Notes under the pieces: generated by a model
What the model was told of the DNA's origin: nothing
Seen by the model: only the letters and a program-made list of their open reading frames with translations
Database searches by the model: none
Made by a program: the position numbers and the translations under genes
NCBI RefSeq assembly: GCF_030445035.2
Contig: NC_080701.1
Span: 11,002,739 to 11,066,738 of the forward strand
DNA length: 64,000 bases
Reading direction: 5' to 3'
Origin: Dasypus novemcinctus
Taxonomy: Eukaryota; Chordata; Mammalia; Cingulata; Dasypodidae
In this document: piece after piece, positions 15,353-62,438 of the stretch
Layout: each line of letters starts with the position of its first letter
How positions within the stretch are numbered: position 1 is the stretch's first letter

Positions 15353-15364
15353 AGAATGTGCCAG

Positions 15365-15766
15365 GTTAGGAAGTGGATGTGGCTCAACTGATATAGCATC
15401 CACCTACCACATAGGCGGTCCAGGGTTCGAACCCAGGGCCTCCTGGCCCATGCAGTGAGCTGGCCCACGTGCAGTGCTGATGCGTGCAAGGAGTGCTGTG
15501 CCACACAGGGGTGTCCCCCATGTAGGGGTGTCCCATGCACAAGGAGTGCACCCTGCAAGGAGAGCTGCCCCCCACAAAAAAAGCACAGCCCACCCAGGAG
15601 TGGTGCCGCACACATGGAGAGCTGACTCAGCAAGATGATGCAACAAAAAGAAACACAGATTCCCGGTGCCACCTGACAAGAATGCAAGCAGACACAGAAG
15701 AACACACAGCAAGTGGACACAAGAAAGCAGACAATGGGGGGAAGGGGAGAGAAACAAAATAAAAAA
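15365..15766 (+). mobile_element. DAS SINE, full length
   Basis: GGAAGTGGATGTGGCTC head with B-box-like GGTTCGAACCC, long body with CAAGGAGTG phrases, CAGCAAGATGATGCAAC, tail GAGAGAAACAAAATAAAAAAA. A 12-bp target duplication AGAATGTGCCAG flanks it at 15353-15364 and 15767-15778 (with TTAGG just inside). The head retains tRNA-like A and B boxes. Confidence 0.95.
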
Positions 15767-15799
15767 AGAATGTGCCAGATATTCATCATATATCACTTA

Positions 15800-17250
15800 A
15801 AAAAAAAAACTATTTTAAAGCAGTTTTAAATTCACAGAAAAATTCCAAAACAGATTCCCATATATCCCTTTTATTGACATTTTATCTTCGCAAGATACAT
15901 TTGTTACAGTTAAAGTCATGAGACAATACTGTATCCACAGTGATGCATTGTTATTAACTGAAGGCCTTTTTTGTACTTCCTCAGTTTTTAGCTCTTGTCC
16001 TTTTTTGTTCCTGGGATCACCTCCCTTATACACCTTACATTTAATCGTCGTGTCTCCTTGACGCTCCTTCAGCTGTGACAATTCCTCAGACTTTCCTTGT
16101 TGTTGATGAACCTGACGGTCTTGAGAAGCACTGGGAAGGTGTTTTGCAGCGTGAACTTGGGTGGGGGTTTGTTGACTGTCTTTCTCGTGTTTACTGGGTT
16201 TCTGTGGCATGCCCCGTTCTTCACCTCACGTCCAGGGCGCGCCCTCTCAGCGTGACTTGCCGCTGTTGATCTTAGCCTTGCTCACCTGCTCCAGGTAGCG
16301 TTTGTCAGGTTTTTCCACTCTAAAGGGACTCTTCCCCGCCACCCTTTCCACACTGTACTCCTTGAAAGGAGGTCATTAGTCCAAACCACACTAGAAGAGT
16401 GTAGAGTTATGCTCTATCTCTTTGAGGGCAGAATATCTACAAAAATTACTTGAAATTCTTATTTATTTATGTCATTATAGACACATGGATTCTTTAATAT
16501 ACTTTGGGTTATAATCCAATACTTCTTTATTTCGTTGCTCAAACCGTTCCAGCTTTGACCACCGTGAGCTCTCTCACCAGGGGTTTGACATACCCCTTCA
16601 CTGTGATTTTTGTTTTACACGTCCTTAGTTTCAAGCACGGCAGGATGCTCCAGGCTCTTCTTGGCTATTGCCTGCCCCTCTCCTAGAATCAGCCATTTCT
16701 TCAGGGAGTCCTGGTAACTTTCACTGGATAATGGCATTAGAAAAAAAGATGTGCGTGCCGGGTGTGCATTGCTACTGGATGCTTTTGCCTCCGGACCAGG
16801 GGCTCTTATCCTTTTTTGTTCTGGGACCCCTCGGCCAGCCAGGTGAAAACCACAGGCCCCTTACTGAGTCCACTTAGTTTTATTTAATAAATAGATCGCA
16901 CCCACACCAACATGTCCCCACAAGAATGTTTTTCTGGATTCCAATTCAAGCTCATGGACCCCTTGTTAAGAACCCCTGTTCAAATGACAGCAAAGAAACA
17001 TATGTGTATATGTGTCTATACTGACCCATGACTAGGCACATACTTACAAATATTTTTATATGTAACTACCTGGATCTATGTTAAGTTAAACATGAGTTCA
17101 TACCAATTTCTCCAGCTCTAATCCTTCCACATGGCTCCTTCTACCTCCTCCCCCTTCTAACCTGTAACCTCCCACTCCAACTGTGAGCAACCTGGCCAGT
17201 CTTCCTTCAAGGCCACCAGCCTGGCATCATTCAGGGGTGTTGTTCCCAAG
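15800..17250 (-). mobile_element. Old L1 3' UTR, minus strand, interrupted
   Basis: Sequence matches the recognisable L1M/L1ME 3' UTR in antisense: 'AAATTCACAGAAAAATTCC', 'ATTCCTCAGACTTTCCTTG', and far to the right 'ACCTGGATCTATGTTAAG' and 'AACATGAGTTCATACC'. A hAT-type element at 16797-16978 lies inside it. No coding capacity remains. Confidence 0.6.
16797..16978. mobile_element. hAT-type MITE with terminal inverted repeats
   Basis: It begins CAGGGGCTCTTATCC and ends TTAAGAACCCCTG, so the two ends are near-perfect inverted repeats. The interior has 'GGGACCCCTCGGCCAGCCAGG' and 'CATGGACCCCTTG', matching the copy at 60948-61183. Length 182 bp, non-autonomous. An 8-bp target duplication is no longer clear. 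Confidence 0.8.
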
Positions 17251-17437
17251 GAAAAGGGGAGAATTGATAAGGGGAGATGGCTAAGGTCTCCACCGCAGAT
17301 ACCCTGGAGTAGCAGGTCAGGAAACAGGAAGATACAATGGCTTTATTTTGATTTTGGGCCGAATTCCTAAGAAAAGATCCTTTGTTTTTCTCCCCAAGAC
17401 TGCCACCTTTGGACGCAGTGCTCATTTCCATTTTCTT

Positions 17438-17843
17438 TTTTTTTAAGATTTATTTATTTCTCTCCCCTCCTCTCCACCCCAGTTGTCTGTTCTCTGTGTC
17501 TATTTGCTGCGGGTTCTCTCTTTGTCCGTTTCTGTTGTCAGCGGCATAGGAACCTGTGTTTCTTTTTGCTGCGTCATCTTGCTGTGTCAGCTCTCCGTGT
17601 GGGCGGCGCCATTCCTGGGCAGGCTGCACTTTTTTCATGTGGGGCAGCTCTCCCTACGGGGCGCACTCCTTGTGCGTGGGGCTCCCCTATGCGGGGGACA
17701 CCCCTGTGTGGCAGGGCACTCCTTGCGCGCATCAGCACTGCACATGGGCCAGCCCCACACGGGTCAGGGAGGCCCAGGGTTTGAACCGCGGACCTCCCAC
17801 GTGGTAGACGGATGCCCTAACCACGGGGCCAAGTCCGCCGCTG
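17438..17843 (-). mobile_element. DAS SINE, full length
   Basis: The poly(T) side is at the left (AAGATTTATTTATTTCTCTCC) and the tRNA-like head at the right (GTTTGAACCGCGGACCTCC ... GGGGCCAAGTCCGCCGC). An 11-bp target duplication TCCATTTTCTT lies at 17427-17437 and 17844-17854. Long minus-sense and plus-sense frames here are SINE artefacts. Confidence 0.95.
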
Positions 17844-17854
17844 TCCATTTTCTT

Positions 17855-18324: not shown

Positions 18325-18880
18325 ATTGTGGATGGAAAGTGAGCTTTTTTTTTTTTTAAGATTTATTTATTTATTTATTTCTCTCCCCCCCCCTGCCCTC
18401 CCCCCCGGTTGTCTGTTCTCTGTGTCTACTTGCTGCGTGTTCTTTGTCTGCTTCTGTTGTTATCAGCGGCATGGGGATCTGTGTTTCGGGGATCTGTGTT
18501 TCTTTTTGCTGCGTCATCTTGCTGTGTCAGCTCTCCGTGTGTGCGACACCATTCCTGGGCAGGCTGCACTTTCTTTCACACTGGGTGGCTCTCCTTATGG
18601 GGCTCACTCCTTGCGCGTGGGGCTCCCCTATGCAGGAACACCTCTGCGTGGCACGGCACTTCTTGCGCGCATCAGCACTGTGCATGGGCCAGCTCCACAC
18701 GGGTCAAGGAGGCCCGGGGCTTGAACCGCGGACCTCCCATGTGGTAGACGGACGCCCTAACCACTGGGCCAAGTCCGCCACCCGAAAGTGAGCTTTAGAG
18801 ACACACTCACCTAGGTTAGAATCCTAACTCTGCCACTTAACAGCTATGCCATCCTGAGCAAATTATTGTGAATATTTAAA
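18325..18880 (+). mobile_element. MIR fragment split by a SINE
   Basis: Removing the SINE (18348-18783) and one copy of its target duplication joins 'GTGGATGGAAAGTGAGCTT' to 'TAGAGACACACTCACC', then 'GAATCCTAACTCTGCCACTT', in MIR order. The MIR was present before the SINE arrived. Confidence 0.6.
18348..18783 (-). mobile_element. DAS SINE, full length, inserted in MIR
   Basis: Poly(T) at left, head at right (CTTGAACCGCGGACCTCCC ... CCAAGTCCGCCACCC). Perfect 13-bp target duplication GAAAGTGAGCTTT at 18335-18347 and 18784-18796. It has a small internal duplication of GGGATCTGTGTTTC near 18475-18505. Confidence 0.95.
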
Positions 18881-21374: not shown

Positions 21375-21798
21375 GGGAAGCGGGCTTGACCCAGTGGTTA
21401 GGATGTCCGTCTACCACATGGGAGATCCACGGTTCAAACCCTGGGCCTCCTTGACCCGTGTGCAGCTGGCCCACGCGCAGTGCTGATGCGTGCAAGGAGT
21501 GCAGTGCCATGCAGGGGTGTCCCCTGTGTAGGGGAGCCCCACGCACAAGGAGTGCGCCCCATAAGGAGAGCCGCCCAGCGCAAAAGAAAGTGCAGCCTGC
21601 CCAGGAATGGCGCCGCACACACAGAGAGCTGACACAGCAAGATGACGCAACAAAAAGAAACATAGATTCCTGTGCCGCTGACAACAACAGAAGCGGACAA
21701 AGAAACAAGACACAGCAAATAGACACAGAGAACAGACAAACGGGGGAGGGGGGGCGGGGAGGGGAGGGGGAGAAATAAATAAATAAATCTTTAAAAAA
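21375..21798 (+). mobile_element. DAS SINE, full length
   Basis: GGGAAGCGGGCTTGACCCAG head, B-box-like GGTTCAAACCC, full CAAGGAGTG body, tail AAATAAATAAATAAATC. Perfect 13-bp target duplication AAAGACACATTGT at 21362-21374 and 21799-21811, so it is among the younger copies. Confidence 0.95.
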
Positions 21799-21811
21799 AA
21801 AGACACATTGT

Positions 21812-22711
21812 ACATGCTGTATGTGTTAGAAATGATTATCTATGAAAACTCAAACGCACTTATTTGTTCCAGGCCAAAGAGTAGCAAGAGTTGATGCTCC
21901 CTTATGCTTCAGAGTCCGGCTGCATACCTAATAAGAAATCGTTTCAATGGAGAGAAAAATCTGCTGTAGGTGTGTGAATGAATGAAATGGACTAAAAAGC
22001 AACATTTTGCCTGATTCTTTTCAATAATTCTGACATTAGTCGAATCAAAAAAAATTTTTAAAGGAAAGTATGCATCTTTTTAGGGGAAAGGGGGCTGGCA
22101 ATATGTATTCTAACAAATCTTCATTGTATTGTTTTTTATGTCCCTTTTCTTCTACGGCCAGGCATTTTTTGTCTGCTCTGAAGAACTAAGGTGAAACCTA
22201 TTTAAGAGTGGGCCAGCCCGGAAATCATATTTTATTCTTGCTTCGCCAAAGCAGAACTTGCCTGGACCAGGCATGGCTTTTTTCATGATCCTGTTCAGCA
22301 GAGTGGTTCAAACAGGTTGAATGAGGATCTCTGAGATGGGAAGGGAGAAGCTGCGTTAGATCGTGGTCCCCAAGTCATCTCAGAGCACCTAAACTTACTA
22401 CTGCAAGTGCCGTCCCCAGGACAGGAGCTCCGGCTTCCTGTCGGAGCTTGAAAAAAGTGCAAACCCCAGCCCACTGAGTTATTTGAACACACTCTCCAAG
22501 TCATTGTCATGCCCTTTTGTCTGCTGCTCATTAGTGTTTGAGAAATACACCCTGCGTATGCGTACCACAGATCATAAAAGTAGGAGCCACTGACGGGTTT
22601 ACCGAGCCAGCCCGGACTTGGCCTTAGGAAGGGGTGAAGAGCCCCACGGAGCAGGTCCTCTAGGCTTGATGCACGCCCAAGTGTGAGAGCCACTGCTCCA
22701 GAGCGGTGATG
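21812..22711. other. Unique sequence
   Basis: The minus-strand frame at 22295-22693 (132 codons) has no recognisable family and no splice support. No repeat recognised. Confidence 0.4.
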
Positions 22712-25040: not shown

Positions 25041-25542
25041 TAAAAAATTGTAGTTGATCCAAGAAACCAATCTGGAACAGCGGTAAGTAACCCTAAGCTT
25101 CTCTGGGCACTAAGGAGTACTCCTTAAGAAAAACACATGCTTTTATAAAGCCCCATAATCTGGTTAAAGTAAAAGCATTGCCTTTGGTTTTATGGATTTT
25201 TTTTTTTTACCATTTTTTCTTTTTCTTAACTTTTAAATAGATTTTAGGCACCTTCATTGTGCTAGAGAACTTTCTTTACTGGTAAGAAATTAAAGTCCTT
25301 ATTCTAGAAAGACATGCATGTAATTTTTTGTCTTTCTTTTTGTTGGAAAATGAATAAAGGTAGAGAGAGAAACAGAGATGGACAGCATAGAGAGTTAGGA
25401 CACAGAGCTTAAAGGAAATGGGGGAGTGGATGATCATGATACTGGTCGGTAGGAAAACGGGGGAGACAAGGATGATAGAAGATGCCCAATGGGCATGCTT
25501 TTGACTCCCTGTTCTAAATTCTAACTTCCTAACAATATATTC
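25041..25542. other. AT-rich unique sequence
   Basis: T-run at 25198-25208. No gene or repeat recognised; the 107-codon minus-strand frame at 25276-25599 runs into the SINE tail and is not credible. Confidence 0.4.
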
Positions 25543-25553
25543 AGCGCTAGTTT

Positions 25554-25974
25554 CTTTCTTTTCTTTTTTTAAAGATTTATTTTTTGTTTCTCTCCCCATC
25601 CCCCCACTCCGGTTGTCTGTTCTCTGTGTCTATTTGCTGTGTCTTCTTCATCTGCTTCTGTTGTTGTCAGCGGCACGGGAATCTGTGTGGCTTTTTGTTG
25701 CATCATCTTGCTGTGTCAGCTCTCCGTGTGTACGGTGCCATTCCTGGGCAGGCTGCTCTTTCTTTCGCACTGGGAGGCTCTCTTTGCGGGGCACACTCCT
25801 TGCTCGTGGGGCTCCCCTACGTGGGGGACACCCCTTTGTGGCAGGGCACTCCTTGCGCTCATCAGCACTGCGCATGGGCCAGCTCCACATGGGTCAAGGA
25901 GGCCCAGGGTTTGAACCGTGGACCTCCCATGTGGTAGACGGACGCCCTAACCACTTGGCCAAGTCTGCTTCCCT
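25554..25974 (-). mobile_element. DAS SINE, full length
   Basis: Poly(T) at left, head at right (GGTTTGAACCGTGGACCTCC ... GGCCAAGTCTGCTTCCC). An 11-bp imperfect target duplication AGCGCTAGTTT (25543-25553) / AGAGCTACTTT (25975-25985), 9 of 11 matching. The 217-codon plus-strand frame at 25613-26266 is a SINE body read-through. Confidence 0.9.
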
Positions 25975-25985
25975 AGAGCTACTTT

Positions 25986-26309
25986 TCAGCTCACTAATCT
26001 TCTGCTCCACCCAGTCTGCTGCCGAAGACATCCACCCAGAGGGGCATCTGTATGCATGCGGAAGTCTGTTCATCCCCTTCACTGACCTAAGCTATAGTTA
26101 TAGTTTCTTGTTTTCTGCAAAAACTCCAAGTGTTTCATCTATTATTCATTGTCCGAGCCTGAGAATGCTAAGACCTGAAGCCTGTGCGGTCATTTTCTAC
26201 GGTCCATCATTTCTGCAGGTTCTCTCTCGTGTTGCCTTGCCTTCTTGGGAGCCTGATTATCTTTAACTGCATGCTTGCCACTGCCTTTTTTTTTTGGGAG
26301 AATTAATGT
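25986..26309. other. Unique spacer
   Basis: No gene or repeat recognised. Confidence 0.4.
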
Positions 26310-27306: not shown

Positions 27307-27314
27307 AAGTCTTT

Positions 27315-27683
27315 GGGGTAGCGGACTTGGCTCAACAGATAGAGCATCCGCCTACCACATGGAGGTCCAGGGTTCAAACCCCAGGCCTCCTGACCTGTGT
27401 GGAGCTGGCCCACATGCAGTGCTGATGCACGAAAGGAGTGCCCTGCCACGCGGGGTGTCCCACGTGCAAGGAGTGCTCCCCGCAAGGAGTCCTGCACAGC
27501 GCGAAAGAAAGTGCAGCCTGCCCAGGAGTGGCGCCACACACACACAGAGCTGACACAACAAGATGATGCAACAAAAAGAGACACAGATTCCCGGTGCTGC
27601 TGACAAGAATAGAAAGCGGACACAGAAGAACACACAGCGAATGGACACAGAGATAAATAAAAATAAATCTTGAAAAAAAAAAA
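27315..27683 (+). mobile_element. DAS SINE
   Basis: GGGGTAGCGGACTTGGCTC head, GGTTCAAACCCCAGGCCTCC, shortened body, tail GATAAATAAAAATAAATC. Short target duplication AAGTCTT at 27307-27313 and just after the poly(A) near 27684-27690. Confidence 0.9.
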
Positions 27684-27690
27684 AAGTCTT

Positions 27691-29804
27691 CAGTTAGGAA
27701 TTCTTAACTTTGTAATTAACAGAAATAGAATAGCGCAGAGTGTTTTGCTTCGGGAATCTAAAATTTTTAGAACCAAAGTGACAAAGTAAAGGTCAGTGGC
27801 TGCTTGATTTTACTAAAGGATAAAATATTTATTATTAACGCCATCAACAACATAAGTCCTTTCGATGTGCCTCATTATCTGTAATACCGTATGAAATTAC
27901 AGCTATCGCCGCCTCCCTGTCCTGGGGGACTGATACCCTATTGGCAAAAGCGTGTTGAATAGTCGGGGACACAGATGGTCACGTCTACTATCTAATCAGA
28001 TAACCTTAGGTGTCCACTTTCTTTGCTCTGAAACAAGAAGGCTGAACTTGATCTCTGAAAGTCATTTTGGTTCAAAAAGTGATCTGGCTTCTTTCAGAGT
28101 TTATAATCTGGGCTAATACTATTTTGGCTCTTTACCATGCCAGAGCAGTGAAGAGGGCGGGAAGGGCAGGTTTGTCCAGCCACTGCTCTTTTTCCCTCTC
28201 CTCGGTCCAAAACAAAATTCCCAAAAGAGGTTGAGACAGCATTTAAGAATTATCAACATCATAACGCAGAAAATTATTTGAGATTTTTAAAATCAGGGAG
28301 AAAAAAGGTGAGCACATACAAACGTACACTGTAACGTCTCAAACGGATCCCTGAGTCTATGCAGAAGTTTCTGGTGGCCCAAACAAGAAAACTTGGTTAG
28401 GTGCTGAACTTACATTGCTTGTAAAATAATGGCAAACCAAAGGAAAGCTTTTCCTAGAACCTCATTCTGAGAAAATGTTCTTCCACGGGTCTTTACAAAG
28501 GAAAGCCCGAGTGGTGTCAGAGAGCGTTGAGTCTCCCTCCAGCTGCTCTGGTCTTGGGGTGTCCCACGTGCCACTCCTCTGTACCCCACCATCCCTGCCT
28601 GCCTGTGTGTCAGCCACGTGCTGACAGATTGTCTGGACTGCCCAGGGGAACCGATCAATAATAGTCACGAGATGAACCAGGTTTTTGTTGTTGTTTTGAA
28701 GAGAAAAATGCTCTCAGCACTTCCTTCAAGCCGAAGCTCTCTGGAAGAATGTTTCATTTTAAGATGGTGACCAGGTCACCTGGCAGGCTCTAAGCACGGT
28801 TTTGGCACAAGGACCCAGCAATCTCCACCCTCCACCCAGGTTTCTAGTCCAAAAAAACTGTCATGTGTGCTTCTTTGTTGGTTATAGCTAAAGTAAGCAG
28901 TTAGGAAGAGGGCTCTGAGCCCAGCCTGGGGAGGAAGTTGCACAGTGGAGGGCTGGCCCCCTGTGGTCCTGTCCCAGTCCTTGGCCCGCTTTCGAGCCTC
29001 TGGAGTGAAAGGGGCTGGTCTATGGGCACATTGGGCAGCTTCAGGGCGCAGGGGACGTACAGGGGCACCGAACGCTGGGGAGAGGTGTGCTTTCGCCGTG
29101 TATCCATGGACACAGCCTGGCCGTGGAGCGGGGATGATGGAGGGACCCGGGCATTCTGGATGTGAGAGGAGCTGCAGCTCGGATGCTTAGCAGGAGAACA
29201 GCCCTTTTCTGCGGGAAGCAGTGCTCCCAGGGGCCAGGGACACCTGCTCCCTGCCTCAAAGGCTTCTGGGCAGAGGGTGAACATGATGCTTTCATCCCTG
29301 AATATGTGGGAGACAGTTCTGGGGTGGCCCAGAAACAACTGGAGCTTTCAACGTGGAGCCTGAGATCTCACAGCTATCGAGTGGTCCGAGGTCAGACGCC
29401 AACATGAATTTACCTGCACCCGTAGACTTCTCACACCTGCAGAGGCTCAGGGTCATGAACTCTCATTTTTTTCCCCACCTGGCGAGGATCTTAGTTTGCA
29501 GCTGAGGTAGTGAAACCCAGGAAATGGGTGTCGTGGGCCTCCGGTCTTGCCCATCCCCTGACAAGTGGCAATGGGCTCTGAGGCTGCCGAGGGTAAATGG
29601 GGACCCCTTTCCCTACACCTCACGGGAATATGGTCCCAGCACCTCCTGGGGGGGTCACCCCACCCAGTCAGGAAGACACTGAAATGAACCTGTCCCTGCA
29701 TAGACGGCTGAGAGGCCAATGGCAAGAAACAAGCTTGCTCTGTGTTGGAATTCTTCCGTCCTTGCATAAAAGTAAATCCTAATCCAGAGGGAACCCAACT
29801 GACT
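27691..29804. other. Unique sequence, GC-richer from 28900
   Basis: No gene assigned. 28900-29450 is GC-richer and has frames of 75-145 codons on both strands (the longest is 28901-29338 minus), but their compositions look random and no domain is recognised. No repeat family recognised. Confidence 0.4.
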
Positions 29805-30130: not shown

Positions 30131-30234
30131 AAAATTCCTTAATAAAACAAGTGATTAAATATGCCGATCAGACATGCTACCTGAATTTGATTAGGATGGG
30201 ATGTGCCACACCTCTGGTGTTCAAAAGAAGGTTA

Positions 30235-30661
30235 GGGAAGCAGATGTGGCTCAATTGATAGAGCATCCTCCTACCACATGGGAGGTCCACGGTTCAAACC
30301 CACGGCCTCCTGACCCGTGTGATGAGCTGGCCCACGCTCAGTGCTGATGTGCACGAGGAGTGCCCTGCCACGCACAGGTGTCCCCCAAGTAGAGGAGCCC
30401 CACACACAAGGAGTGTGCCCTGTAAGGAGAGCCGCCTAGTGTGAAAGAAAGTGCAGCCTGCCCAGGAGTAGCACAGCACCCACAGAGAGCCGACACAGCA
30501 AGATGACGCAACAAAAAAAGAGACACAGATTCCCAGTGCCACTGACAAGGATATAAGCAGACACAGAAGAACACACAGCGAATGGACACAAAGAGCAGAC
30601 AAATGGGGGAGGGGGGAGTGGAGAGAAAGAAATAAAAATAAGTAAATAAATCTTAAAAAAA
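30235..30661 (+). mobile_element. DAS SINE, full length
   Basis: GGGAAGCAGATGTGGCTC head, GGTTCAAACCC, full body, tail AAATAAAAATAAGTAAATAAATC. Imperfect target duplication AAAGAAGGTTA (30224-30234) / AAAAGAGGTTA (30662-30672). Confidence 0.92.
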
Positions 30662-30710
30662 AAAAGAGGTTAAATAACAAAATTAATAAATAGCCATATG
30701 AGGAAATATA

Positions 30711-52899: not shown

Positions 52900-53103
52900 T
52901 GGTGTTTTTGCTGCTGCTGTTGTTGTTTTATCCATTCTATCAGTTTATGTGTTTTGACTGGGGAGTTCAAGTCATTAACGTTCAATATTATTACTGTAAA
53001 GGCATTACTTCATCCATTTTGTCCTTTGGTTTTCTGTAGGCATATCTTAGTATTGTTTGTCTTTTTACCCCTTAATTTACCCTTCCTAATAATCTTCATT
53101 TCT

Positions 53104-53885
53104 GGGAAATGGATGTAGCTCAACCAATTGGACTCCTGTCTACCATATAGGAGGTCCAGGGTTCGATGCCCAGGGCCTCCTGGTGAGGTGAGCTGGTCCA
53201 TGCAGAGTGCTGCCCAGCATGGAAAAGCTGCCCTATGCAGGAGTGCTGCCCAGCATGGAAAAGCTGCCCTATGCAGGAGTGCTGCCCAGCATGGAAAAGC
53301 TGCCCTATGCAGGAGTGCTGCCCAGCATGGAAAAGCTGCCCTATGCAGGAGTGCTGCCCAGCATGGAAAAGCTGCCCTATGCAGGAGTGCTGGCCAGCAT
53401 GGAAAAGCTGCCCTATGCAGGAGTGCTGGCCAGCATGGAAAAGCTGCCCTATGCAGGAGTGCTGGCCAGCATGGAAAAGCTGCCCTATGCAGGAGTGCTG
53501 GCCAGCATGGAAAAGCTGCCCTATGCAGGAGTGCTGCCCAGCATGGAAAAGCTGCCCTATGCAGGAGTGCTGCCCAGCATGGAAAAGCTGCCCTATGCAG
53601 GAGTGCTGGCCAACACGGAGAGCTGGTGCAGCAATATGATGCAACAAGAGACAAAGAGGAGAGAAAATAAAAACACATAGCAGAATAGGGAGATGAGATG
53701 GCGCAAGAGAGTAATCACCTCTCTCCCAGTCTGGAAGATCCTAGGATCAGTTCCTGGACTGTCTAATGAGAATACAAGCAGACACAGAAGAACACAGAGC
53801 AAATGGATACAGAGAGCAGACAATGGGGAGAATGGGGGAGGGGGGAAGAGGGGGGGAGAAATAAATAAACCTTTAAAAATAATAA
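53104..53885 (+). mobile_element. DAS SINE whose body is an internal VNTR
   Basis: Head GGGAAATGGATGTAGCTC with B-box GGTTCGATGCCC and GGCCTCCTGG, then 11 full copies of a 36-bp unit (53207-53602). SINE sequence then resumes: GGAGAGCTGGTGCAGC, GATGCAACAAGAGAC, a second head-like part near 53690-53770 and tail GAGAAATAAATAAACC. A perfect 17-bp target duplication TAATAATCTTCATTTCT flanks it at 53087-53103 and 53886-53902, so head, VNTR and tail are one inserted element. It lies in the L1 at 52900-56045. Confidence 0.95.
53207..53620 (+). repeat. 36-bp VNTR, 11 full units plus a partial
   Basis: Units start GTGCTG at 53207 and every 36 bp to 53567, with a partial at 53603. Each contains CAGCATGGAAAAGCTGCCC and CTATGCAGGA. 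The only variation I see is CC or GG after GCTG: units 1-5 read GCTGCCCAGC, 6-9 GCTGGCCAGC, 10-11 GCTGCCCAGC, and the partial reads GGCC. Since 36 is divisible by 3 and no unit contains a stop in several frames, up to five long frames (134-222 codons) appear; they are artefacts. Confidence 0.97.
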
Positions 53886-53987
53886 TAATAATCTTCATTT
53901 CTACACTAGTCTCCAAATGTCTTGCCCTTGTTTATTCCTTTCAGGCTGCAGCATTCCCTTCAATATCTTTTGTAATTCTGGTCTTTT

Positions 53988-54441
53988 TTTTGGGGGGGGG
54001 TTTCCTTTTTTTTTTTTTTAAGATTTATTTATTTACTTCTCTCCCCTCCCCCCGCCCCAGTTGTCTGTTCTCTGTGTCTATTTGCTGTGTCTTCTTCTTT
54101 GTCCGCTTCTGTTGTTGTCAGTGGCACGGGAATCTGTGTTTCTTTTTTTGCTGTTGTTGTTGCATCATCTTGTTGTGTCAACTTTCTGTGTGGGCGGTGC
54201 CATTCTTAGGCAGGCTGCACTTTGTTTCGTGCTGGGCAGGTCTCCTTACGGGGTGCACTCCTTGCACGTGGGGCTCCCCTATGCAGGAGACACCCCTGCG
54301 TGGCATGGCACTCCTTGCACGCATCAGCACTGAGCATGGGTCAGCTCCACAGGGGTCAAGGAGGCCCGGGGTTTGAGCCGTGGACCTCCCATGTGGTAGA
54401 CGGATGCTCTAACCACTGGGCCAAGTCTGCTTCCCACAGTG
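53988..54441 (-). mobile_element. DAS SINE, full length
   Basis: Poly(T) with an interrupting run of G at left (53988-54020), head at right (GGTTTGAGCCGTGGACCTCC ... CCAAGTCTGCTTCCC). Target duplication TTCTGGTCTTTT at 53976-53987 and 54442-54453. Six extra bases (ACAGTG) lie between head and duplication. Confidence 0.9.
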
Positions 54442-55549
54442 TTCTGGTCTTTTGATAACATGTTCTACCAGTATTTGTTTGTCTGTGGAGACTTTGAACT
54501 CATCATCATTTTTGAAGAAAAGTTTTGCTAGATACAGAGTTCTTGATTGGCAGTTTCTCTCTTTCAGTACCTTAAATACATCATACCACTTTCTTCTCTC
54601 CTCCATGGTTTCTGATAAGAGGTCGGCACTTAATCTTATTGAGGTTCCCTTTTATGTGATGCTTTTCTCTTGCTGCTTTCAGAATCCTCTCTTTATCTCT
54701 GATATTTGTCATTCCGTATAGTAGGTGTCTCGGGGTATGTCTATTTGGATTTATTCTGTTTGGGGTGCCTTGTCCTTTTTGATATTGATATTTATCTCTT
54801 ATAAAGGTTGGGAAATTGTCAGTCATTGTTTTCTCAAATATTCTTTCTGCCCCCTTTTCATTCTCTTCTCTTTCTGGGGCACCCACAATGCATATGTTTG
54901 TGTATTTCACATTATCATTCAGTTCGCTAAGACCCTTTTTTTTTTTTTCCATTCTCTTCTCTTTTTGTTCTCCCCTATTTTCCAGTTCAGATATTCTGTC
55001 TTTGACATTACTAATTCTGTCCTCGAGCAAGTCAAATCTGCTCTTATATGCCTTTAATGTATTTTTAGTCTCATCCCATAAGATCTGTTACTTCTTTTTG
55101 CAGACTTTCAAATTGTTCTTTATGCTCATTCAGTATCTTCTTAATATCTTTTATCTCTTTTGTCACATTTTTTTCAATTATTTAAATTGATTCAGGAGAG
55201 TTGTGTGATTATCATTGATCAATTATCTTAAATCCTGTATCTCTTTTGGTTTGTTCCTTTCGCTGGACCATCTCTTCCTGTTTCCTAGTATGGCTTACAA
55301 TTCTTTGCTGATGTCTAGCATCTGAATGTGGTTAATTTATTCTGATGGCCAATTTCTCTCTCTTGCCTATTGCTTTTTTTCATAGCTCTTCTTTGATATT
55401 TGTTTCAACTTATTCTAAGTCTTTAAAATTGCCCAGCTTAAGTTATCAATATCATGCCAGAAACTCATGAATGGGGCACAGATTTTCTACCAGGGTTAGA
55501 GTACAGGGAGAACCAAAAGCAGTTTTTGTCCATGCAATTTCGAGACCGG

Positions 55550-59285: not shown

Positions 59286-60002
59286 GTTATTGTATTTTTG
59301 CATTCCCATAGATACAAGGCAATAGTCCTAAGGCACACGCCCATCGTTTTCAGGGAAGATTAACTTGGTAGTGAATCTTCTTTACCTAAGAGTTGTACCC
59401 ATGCCGAACCATAAATTTCAGGTGGAATAGTTTGTAAGTAAAGCTCATTAAAGTGCTTGCCATGTGATCCTGGTATTGTTTGCTGGAGCATTTTTACTTC
59501 TTTGAGGGAGAAAATTTTATCTTCCAGGGGAGAGAGAGATGAGAGGCTTAATTTCTCTGCAGTCATGAGCCAGAACTCAGTTTTTTTGATCTGTAGAGAA
59601 AGTGAATACATCTAGGAACAGGTTATAAGCTCAGTAGTTTTGCCTCAGATATCTTTCTAATTTCTGAGCCTGTAAAGTTTGGCTTATAAACACAAAGATA
59701 AATCTGTACTTAAGAAGGAGTAAACACAGTTTACCTGGGAACACACAAGTGAGATCAGACGGAGAGCATCTATGGTAGATTTCCAATTGTTTCCCCTTCT
59801 CTATTAGGCAATTATGTCCTCACCCATTGCCATGTGACTTGAAGTAATTATGTATTACTTAACTACTTTTACAATAATGCCAAGTAACAAACCACCCCAG
59901 TGGCTTACAACAAAAAACATTTAATTTTTTTCCTCAAAGATCTATGAGTCAGCTCTACTTCAAGCTGTGGATTTTCTGGGCTTGTTTATAAAAAAAAATT
60001 TT
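59286..60002. other. Unique sequence; short old repeat near 59880-59970
   Basis: Mostly unique. 'AACAAACCACCCCAGTGGC' and 'TCTATGAGTCAGCTC' at 59880-59970 resemble a short mammalian-wide repeat that I cannot name. No gene. Confidence 0.35.
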
Positions 60003-60408
60003 TTTCAAGATTTATTTTATTTATTTCTCTCCCTTACTCCCCATTGTCTGCTCTCTGTGTCCATTTGCTGTGTGTTCTTCTGTGTCCATTTGCATTCTTG
60101 TCACGCGGCACTGGGAAACTGTCGCCTTTGTTGTTGTTGTTGTTGTGTCATCTTGCTGCGTCAGCTCTCCATGTGTGCCACTCCTGGGCAGGCTGTGCTT
60201 TTTTTCATGTGGGGTGGCTCTCCTTGTGGGGCACACTCCTTGCACGTGGGGCACCCCTACACAGGGACACCCCTGCGTGGCACGGCACTCCTTGTGCGCA
60301 TCAGCACTGCCCATGGGCCAGCTCCACACGGGTCAGGGAGGCCCTGGGAATTGAACGCTGGACCCTCCATATGGTAGGTGGATGTTCAATCAGTTGAGCC
60401 GCTTCCCT
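60003..60408 (-). mobile_element. DAS SINE, full length
   Basis: Poly(T) left (AAGATTTATTTTATTTATTTC), head right (GAATTGAACGCTGGACCC ... CAGTTGAGCCGCTTCCC). Contains a (TTG)n expansion at about 60129-60147. Target duplication not clear. Confidence 0.9.
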
Positions 60409-60947
60409 AAAAGTCTTTATTGAATCCTCCTGAATATAGAATTCTAAGTTGACAGGGGTTTTGTTTTGTTTTGCATTTTGAAGCTCTCATTTCATTTTCT
60501 TTTGGCTTGCATAGTTTCTAAAGAGAAGTCTGTATAATTCTTATTATTCCTCTGTATATAACGTGCCTTTTTCTCTGGCTGCTTTTAAAATTTCCTCTTT
60601 ATCACTGTTTTTCAGCAATGTGATCATTATATTCCTTGTTTAGTTTTCTTGGCTAGTTTTCTTTCTTGTTTGACTTTTTTGATCTTCTTTGATGTGGGGT
60701 CAATAGTTTTCACTAAATTGGAACCTTTTTTCACTATTTTTTTCAAACTTTTTGTCCACCTCCCCACCCTGCTTTCTGGGATTGCGATTACATATATGCT
60801 AGGCCTCTTTATGTTGCCCCATAGGTCACTGCAGCCCTGTTTTTTTTTAATTTTTGATTTTTTTTTTTTCTCTGTGTGTGGCATTTTGGACTGTTTCCAC
60901 TCCTACATCTTCGAATTCATTCATCTTTTTTTCAGCAGTGTCTAATG

Positions 60948-61471: not shown

Positions 61472-61676
61472 TTTTTCTTTTTTTAGGAGGTACAGGGGAT
61501 GAATCCAGGACCTCGGAGGTGGGAAACAGGTGCTCAGCCACTGAGCTACATCCGCTCCTCAATGAGAGTTGGTTTTTTCATTTGTTTGTTTGTTTTTAGG
61601 AGGTACTGGGGATTGAACCCAGGACCTCATACGTGGGAAGCAGGAGCTCATCCACTTGAGCTACATCTGCTCCCCA
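61472..61676 (-). mobile_element. Dimeric tRNA-like SINE (copy 3)
   Basis: On the minus strand: head 1 (GGGGAGCAGATGTAGCTC ... GGGTTCAATCCCC ... CCTCCTAAAAAC), linker AAATGAAAAAACCAACTC, head 2 (GAGGAGCGGATGTAGCTCAG ... CCTGTACCTCCTAAAAAAAG). Linker agrees with copy 2 almost base for base. Confidence 0.85.
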
Positions 61677-62064: not shown

Positions 62065-62438
62065 TTTTTTTTTTAAGATTTTTTTATTTTTATTTATTTA
62101 ATTCCCCTCCCTCGGTTGTTTGTTTTCTGTGTCTTTTTGCTGCGTCTTGTTTCTTTTGTCCGCTTCTGTTGCCTTCAGCGGCACGGGAAGTGTGGGCGGC
62201 GCCATTCCTGGGCAGGCTGCACTTTCTTTTGCGCTGGGCGGCTCTCCTTATGGGGCGCACTCCTTGTGCGTGGGGCTCCCCTACGCGGGGGACACCCCTG
62301 TGTGGCAGGGCACTCCTTGCACACATCAGCACTGCGCATGGGCCAGCTCCACATGGGTCAAAGAGGCCCGGGGCTTGAACCGCGGACCTCCCTTGTGGTA
62401 GACGGACGCCCTAACCACTGGGCCAAAGTCCGTTTCCC
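62065..62438 (-). mobile_element. DAS SINE
   Basis: Poly(T) left, head right (GGCTTGAACCGCGGACC ... GGCCAAAGTCCGTTTCCC). Target duplication ATGCACGGATTTTT (from 62051) / ATGCATGGATTTTT (from 62439), one mismatch. The 168-codon plus-strand frame at 62116-62622 is a SINE body read-through. Confidence 0.93.

Follow-up and report, generated by a model that had tools for sequence, protein, structure and literature searches.

The window, by which we mean the whole stretch of 64,000 nucleotides of Dasypus novemcinctus analysed here, holds a SINE with an internal array of near-identical 36-bp units. This locus raises the question of whether the array belongs to a mobile composite, comparable with the SVA retroposons of hominoids as the initial annotation suggested, or grew at the site where it is found. 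Very probably, a SINE with a built-in row of short repeats inserted in its short form into an L1 copy and aged there, and the sixth and seventh of its repeats were amplified in place to 11 units.

The SINE (782 bp, positions 53104-53885) is enclosed exactly by a perfect 17-bp target duplication, TAATAATCTTCATTTCT, which was found nowhere else in the window on the same strand. A query of 171 bases, in which the two flanks meet around a single copy of the duplication, was searched against the window's own assembly (3.61 Gb, 546 contigs, the window lying at C44:11002739-11066738), which was the genome used throughout. All of the 40 places scored, the best of 2870 first-look candidates, matched across the empty junction with 86-89% identity. 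The duplication and these matches indicate that the SINE and the array within it form a single insertion in an older repeat, which we read from its own sequence, and not from a library match, as an L1. The claim that head, 11 units and tail all lie inside a single perfect duplication was confirmed both by the coordinates and by the empty site. The head differs from the consensus of its profile at 4 of 86 bases. The tail contains a B-box-like motif, GATCAGTTCC at 53745, and probably holds a second tRNA-like domain. No A box was found in the head with a simple pattern, ARAGORN called no tRNA at the SINE, and TTTT is absent from it. We take the element to be of the DAS type, in agreement with its B-box-like head, its A-rich 3' end and its 17-bp duplication. 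Its copy number is high: the whole element gave 8075 first-look candidates, the best 40 of which yielded 65 match rows once scored, and a part of the tail gave 2964, the best 40 yielding 40 match rows. The DAS-SINEs of the nine-banded armadillo, those of Churakov et al. 2005, reportedly possess a tRNA-derived head, a dimeric or chimeric body and a high copy number, and the present element resembles them in all three respects.

Features of the SINE insertion and of its host site (positions within the window)
Feature	Positions	Strand	Remarks
Host repeat interrupted by the SINE	53013-53982		outer limits of the flanks in the empty-site search
Left copy of target site duplication, 17 bp, TAATAATCTTCATTTCT	53087-53103	+	perfect
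SINE head	53104-53189	+	tRNA-derived, as judged by B-box-like GGTTCGATGCC at 53160
Remnant of native linker repeat 2, GAGCTGGTCCATGCAGAG	53190-53207	+	by-eye comparison with native linker classes
Array of 11 full 36-bp units	53208-53603	+	396 bp; native repeats 6 and 7, amplified
Units 6-9, G variant	53388-53531	+	all other units have C at that base
Native linker repeat 8, at the tail junction	53604-53618	+	first three bases, GAG, common to the end of unit 11
SINE tail	53610-53825	+	tail profile
3' end, G-rich then A-rich (AAATAAATAAACC...AATAATAA)	53826-53885	+	sequence
Right copy of target site duplication, 17 bp, TAATAATCTTCATTTCT	53886-53902	+	perfect

The array was reported by TRF with a period of 36, 11.7 copies, 98% matches and a score of 784, the highest of the 10 rows returned for the window. 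A single base per 36 varies, being C in units 1-5 and 10-11 and G in units 6-9. The 5-4-2 block pattern initially described was recovered, and the accompanying CC/GG switch was not, since only one base (C or G) varies. Rfam gave one match, at 17 bits, below the cut-off of 40. A hairpin as driver of the array was rejected, the DNA fold calculated for three units being no more stable than those of shuffled sequences (z = +1.0; 169 of 200 shuffles at least as stable).

When the whole element was searched, the window was the only place among the best 40 of the 8075 candidates to match at high identity along the array. At a second place (C28, L002/L009) the array aligned at 75%, the array of that place being made of 18-bp units. 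Likewise, among the best 40 of the 240 candidates retrieved with a 216-bp array query, high identity over the whole length was restricted to the window locus; elsewhere the best match was 76% over 198 bases, in the 18-bp array of C28, and short matches reached at most 93% over 59 bases. The first-look search skips very common words, by which some places may escape it. All 11 array windows of the window element were closest to its own array. Exact words from the unit or the tail gave 0 matches in viral and genome contig sets, which may omit records of the window's genome or of genomes near it. By the test set out in the initial annotation, a single 36-bp-array locus among the candidates scored, 40 per search, speaks against the array being part of a mobile composite.

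The origin of the unit was sought in the body of the SINE. Direct comparison of the unit with the head and the tail gave a weak result, equalled or bettered by 74 of 500 shuffles for the head and 29 for the tail, and the relation became clear only once the native linkers, i.e. the stretches between head and tail in related copies, were compared. The initial annotation had derived the unit from the CAAGGAGTG section of the other DAS copies of the window, which was near but wrong. These copies (11, plus 4 dimer-like or partial ones, were aligned) were rejected as a source, their linker being of another make, and only the genome search yielded the right relatives. Thirty-nine related places were fetched, 37 of them with a head match, and head and tail profiles were built from 82 and 78 sequences, respectively. 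The 104 head-linker-tail pairings were reduced to 93 distinct ones by removing duplicates, and 88 were kept after 5 mis-pairings had been dropped, with tail scores of 45-71 bits and linkers of 21 (L068), 16 (L070), 66 (L119), 143 (L110) and 160 (L112). L043 was kept in this set of 88 despite a head score of 21 bits, and L124, with a long array and a short tail match, stands outside it.

In these relatives the linker is a row of 17/18-bp repeats. Its length clusters near 78, 97, 115 and 132 bp, with a few linkers at 44, 62 and about 150 bp. The best period of this ladder was 17.5 bp (R = 0.83, calculated on 71 linkers of 40-170 bp), and none of 2000 smoothed controls scored as high. Across the 24 elements of the 128-136-bp class the repeats are consistent in identity and order, with a mean column agreement of 0.83, and the consensus, by a cutting that is our own, consists of eight ordered repeats: GCAAGCTGGCCCACGTG, GCGAGCTGGCCCACACG, GAGTGCCGGCCCATGCGG, GAATGCTGCCCCATGCAG, GAGTGCCGCCCTGTGTGG, GAATGCCGCCCAGCGTGG, GAAAGCTGCCCTGCGCAG and GAGTGCCAGCCAACGCGG. 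When 63 linkers of 94-165 bp were compared by stretches of 36 bases, 340 of 342 stretches were closest to another locus, which indicates that the order of the repeats is inherited. Throughout the related copies examined, the layout is head-repeats-tail. We regard this built-in row as more interesting than the single window locus, which is itself ordinary; a literature search for it, with the founding DAS paper outside its reach, returned no paper.

Judged by sequence similarity, the 36-mer is repeats 6 and 7 of the native linker of the element's closer relatives. In three ordinary copies (L074, L078 and L083) it occurs with 2 mismatches and begins 42 bases ahead of the linker end. Of the 71 elements with linkers below 187 bp, 36 match the 36-mer with at most 9 mismatches at one place, 6 at two and 29 at none, and in 33 of these places the start lies exactly 42 bases from the linker end. 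Decay or loss of the pair accounts for the 29 copies where no such place was detected. The linker of the window element measures 420 bp; subtracting ten units leaves 60 bp, the size of a short form, with repeat 2 before the pair and repeat 8 after it.

The head and tail together show 22 differences from the profile consensus over 302 sites, or 10 over the 190 outside CpG/TG/CA contexts. The first figure (7.3%) is rough and includes subfamily differences, the consensus having been drawn from copies chosen for their likeness to the window. By divergence, the window element ranks 23rd of the 88, counted from the least diverged. An array of the same age as its flanks would be expected to show 21-29 changes private to one unit in 396 bp, and 0 were seen. 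The array expanded after insertion or was recently homogenised, near-identity fitting both. The recent local copying initially put forward is supported in either form by this lack of private changes against the divergence of the flanks. In addition, the 36-mer contains no CpG, versus a mean of 3.25 per native linker of the 128-136-bp class, and the flanks of the array have lost 6 of 9 consensus CpGs and kept 3, so that the founder unit looks aged before copying. Shared CpG losses taken alone are weak evidence, since every class aligned shows variation at the CpG columns of its linker.

Linkers of 187 bp or more were found in 17 of the 88 elements, the window included; the others, at least 16 in number, range from 187 to 1065 bp, the longest being those of L068 (1065 bp), L123 (965 bp) and L079 (810 bp). 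Long-array copies include L009, L068, L079, L123, L126, L127 and L130, and 11 were obtained via one array query, so that their number is a lower bound. A query made from L009, for which the best 40 of 2852 candidates were scored, retrieved many more places with 18-bp arrays.

These loci bear on the reading in which the window array is a mobile composite of the SVA kind, long arrays being made in source elements, copied by L1 and changed in length later. We consider it improbable. It would suit the presence of long head-array-tail elements at so many loci, and also a tree of heads and tails in which 15 of the 17 long elements fall in one branch (99/98) with only L075 (147 bp) besides; the tree was midpoint-rooted, its bootstrap had not settled, and the 20 copies sharing the L123 tail are outside it. 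However, this branch was sampled mostly by the array query, which makes its excess of long arrays partly a matter of choice, and the window element, like L069, lies outside it. Candidate target duplications, 12-13 bases long with 0-2 mismatches and counted without a chance control, were seen in 6 of the 16 other long elements (L123, L009, L126, L130, L133 and L069; L079 was outside the test); they are all different, which suggests that the six are likely separate insertions and is also in keeping with mobility. The same holds for the 6 of 17 long elements (L069, L072, L122, L127, L131 and L133) that are closest to another locus more often than to their own array. Against mobility, in 8 of the 17 the own array is closest for more than half of the windows (L079 21/22, L009 15/20, L123 20/26). 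Also against it, all 20 copies with the tail of L123, whose own linker has 965 bp, are short: from the end of the head to the end of the matched stretch they measure 62-206 bp, including about 30-40 of tail (matches 2-21 of the best 40). Copies with the tail of the window element are also short: 29 other loci were fetched with it, and the 28 measured all have linkers of 44-146 bp. The 30 loci with this tail comprise the window, 20 separate rows of the set of 88 (44-146 bp) and 9 loci already present among L011-L046; in 8 of these the linker is 96-132 bp long, and the ninth, L046, is without a head match.

The order of units also counts against mobility of long arrays. Among arrays of at least 300 bp, at most 2 of 100 register-keeping shuffles were as good in 4 of 78 pairs, about what chance gives. 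In the native linkers, as a positive control, a test of this kind did recover order, but not for each pair: the median z was 2.2, with at most 1 of 50 shuffles as good in 71 of 208 pairs (68 of 276 pairs were unused, too few units being cuttable). A block-shuffle test, by which many pairs had a high z, was rejected and replaced by these unit shuffles because 36-base blocks break the 17/18-bp register. As no unit order is common beyond chance, the other long linkers look like independent expansions; a shared order would, however, be erased by turnover, which is a point against the reading of local growth. In a wider view, which we find rather unlikely, the SINE family would be an independent non-primate VNTR retroposon whose unit number varies between sources and at the DNA level, one branch sometimes retrotransposing long arrays and later turnover erasing their unit order. 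Little credence is given to the idea that the insertion at the window brought several 36-bp units, homogenised later, with growth only partly local: near-identity and blocks suit homogenisation equally well, and the 6 short elements with two places are looser counterparts (the weaker place has 7-9 mismatches), but a single place is the state of the 36 elements counted above, and two places with 4 mismatches or fewer to the 36-mer occur in no other element of the 88, a biased sample. Near-identical tandem units are also the usual place for assembly errors. That the array is such an artefact, by collapse or by an expansion error, is nevertheless very hard to believe, given the orderly C/G blocks, the intact flanks inside the target duplication and contigs of up to 209 Mb, which point to long reads far exceeding the 396 bp of the array.

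For the window we retain amplification in place after the insertion of a short form. In this abundant DAS-type group, the linker between the head and the second tRNA-like domain consists of degenerate 17/18-bp repeats, at most eight of them, whose order is fixed, and this native row leaves every copy liable to gains and losses of units. Mispairing between neighbouring 17/18-mers, through replication slippage or unequal exchange, would add or remove whole units, in line with the length ladder. At the window, a short linker form, presumably repeats 2-6-7-8, would have inserted into an L1 copy and then aged, after which the pair of repeats 6 and 7 would have been amplified in place into 11 near-identical 36-bp units, the size of the unit corresponding to a mispairing register of two repeats. 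The C/G variant may have spread as a block of four during amplification, in which case the block pattern records one or few multi-unit copying steps. Occasionally a site would run away to tens of units. The window array is then a SINE-born minisatellite, and nothing indicates a function beyond that. With probably thousands of copies, as estimated from the first-look candidates (40 scored per search), the SINE constitutes a natural replicate experiment on the birth of minisatellites, one seed having been placed at many sites with outcomes of about two to about sixty units. The linker arrays are also a possible source of length markers in armadillos.

The head and tail of the window SINE follow the profiles of its own relatives, and the Alu-like 5' region and hominoid 3' domains of the SVA kind would not be expected in an armadillo SINE. 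SVA, LAVA, PVA and FVA are described as hominoid VNTR-composite retrotransposons, and the repeat domains of SVA and LAVA are said to change at the DNA level via short homologies (PMC4432496). Compared with that description, the armadillo SINE likewise has a repeat domain between 5' and 3' domains, at the window within one target duplication, is non-autonomous and, as its target duplication and A-rich end suggest, L1-mobilised, and changes its unit number at the DNA level after insertion (PMC4432496). In contrast with that kind, its units are of 17/18 bp instead of 30-50 bp, its typical copies carry few units, and the mobility of long arrays is here only a candidate (PMC4432496). The SVA comparison of the initial annotation is consequently kept for the head-repeats-tail layout native to these copies and abandoned for the window array, a local minisatellite.

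In Alu-derived and other transposon-derived minisatellites, a short internal part of the element is amplified in place by gradual, local growth, those derived from Alu arising via short direct repeats that flank the arrays, according to the account of Jurka and Gentles 2006 given in PMC3389668. The window array behaves similarly: its unit is single-copy in ordinary copies, and its units are closest to each other, most like their own neighbours and grown in place. Unlike the cases described there, the body of the armadillo SINE already holds the 17/18-bp row, so that the starting duplication is built in, and variation in row length runs through the armadillo copies examined instead of being exceptional (PMC3389668).

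The squamate SINE-derived satellites are arrays of SINE parts with SINE sequence at their ends, most variants being independent in origin, and their authors state that mammals were not specifically checked (PMC10702118). The armadillo arrays, also tandem arrays born from SINE parts, provide a mammalian counterpart to them (PMC10702118). Most squamate arrays bear an extended SINE end on one side, whereas the armadillo element has a complete head and tail in one insertion (PMC10702118). A subtelomeric preference is reported for the squamate satellites (PMC10702118) and is suggestive for the long armadillo arrays, whose contigs may not be chromosomes. The 17 long elements were nearer to contig ends than tail-picked copies, with a median of 12.5 Mb versus 33.2 and 23.2 (one-sided p of 0.007 and 0.021 for distance and of 0.039 and 0.044 for relative position, 4 control rows having been dropped because the length of their contig was unknown).

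Three further observations concern the rest of the window. A separate 35-bp tandem array at 2465-2769 (8.6 copies, with a 71-bp double period) lies just upstream of a TATA-like TATAAAAGGGACC and may be the repeated promoter part of an LTR. ARAGORN made four tRNA-Gly calls on the - strand, at 18707-18779, 25896-25969, 61597-61671 and 62360-62434, which overlap SINE heads and are most likely not tRNA genes. Finally, SINE copies whose linker is longer and differently built, likewise containing quasi-repeats (CAAGGAGTGC), are found at 15360-15800, 17400-17850, 18330-18800, 21380-21830, 25540-25990, 27310-27720, 30230-30700, 53980-54450 and 59960-60420, and their linkers are possibly another source of arrays.
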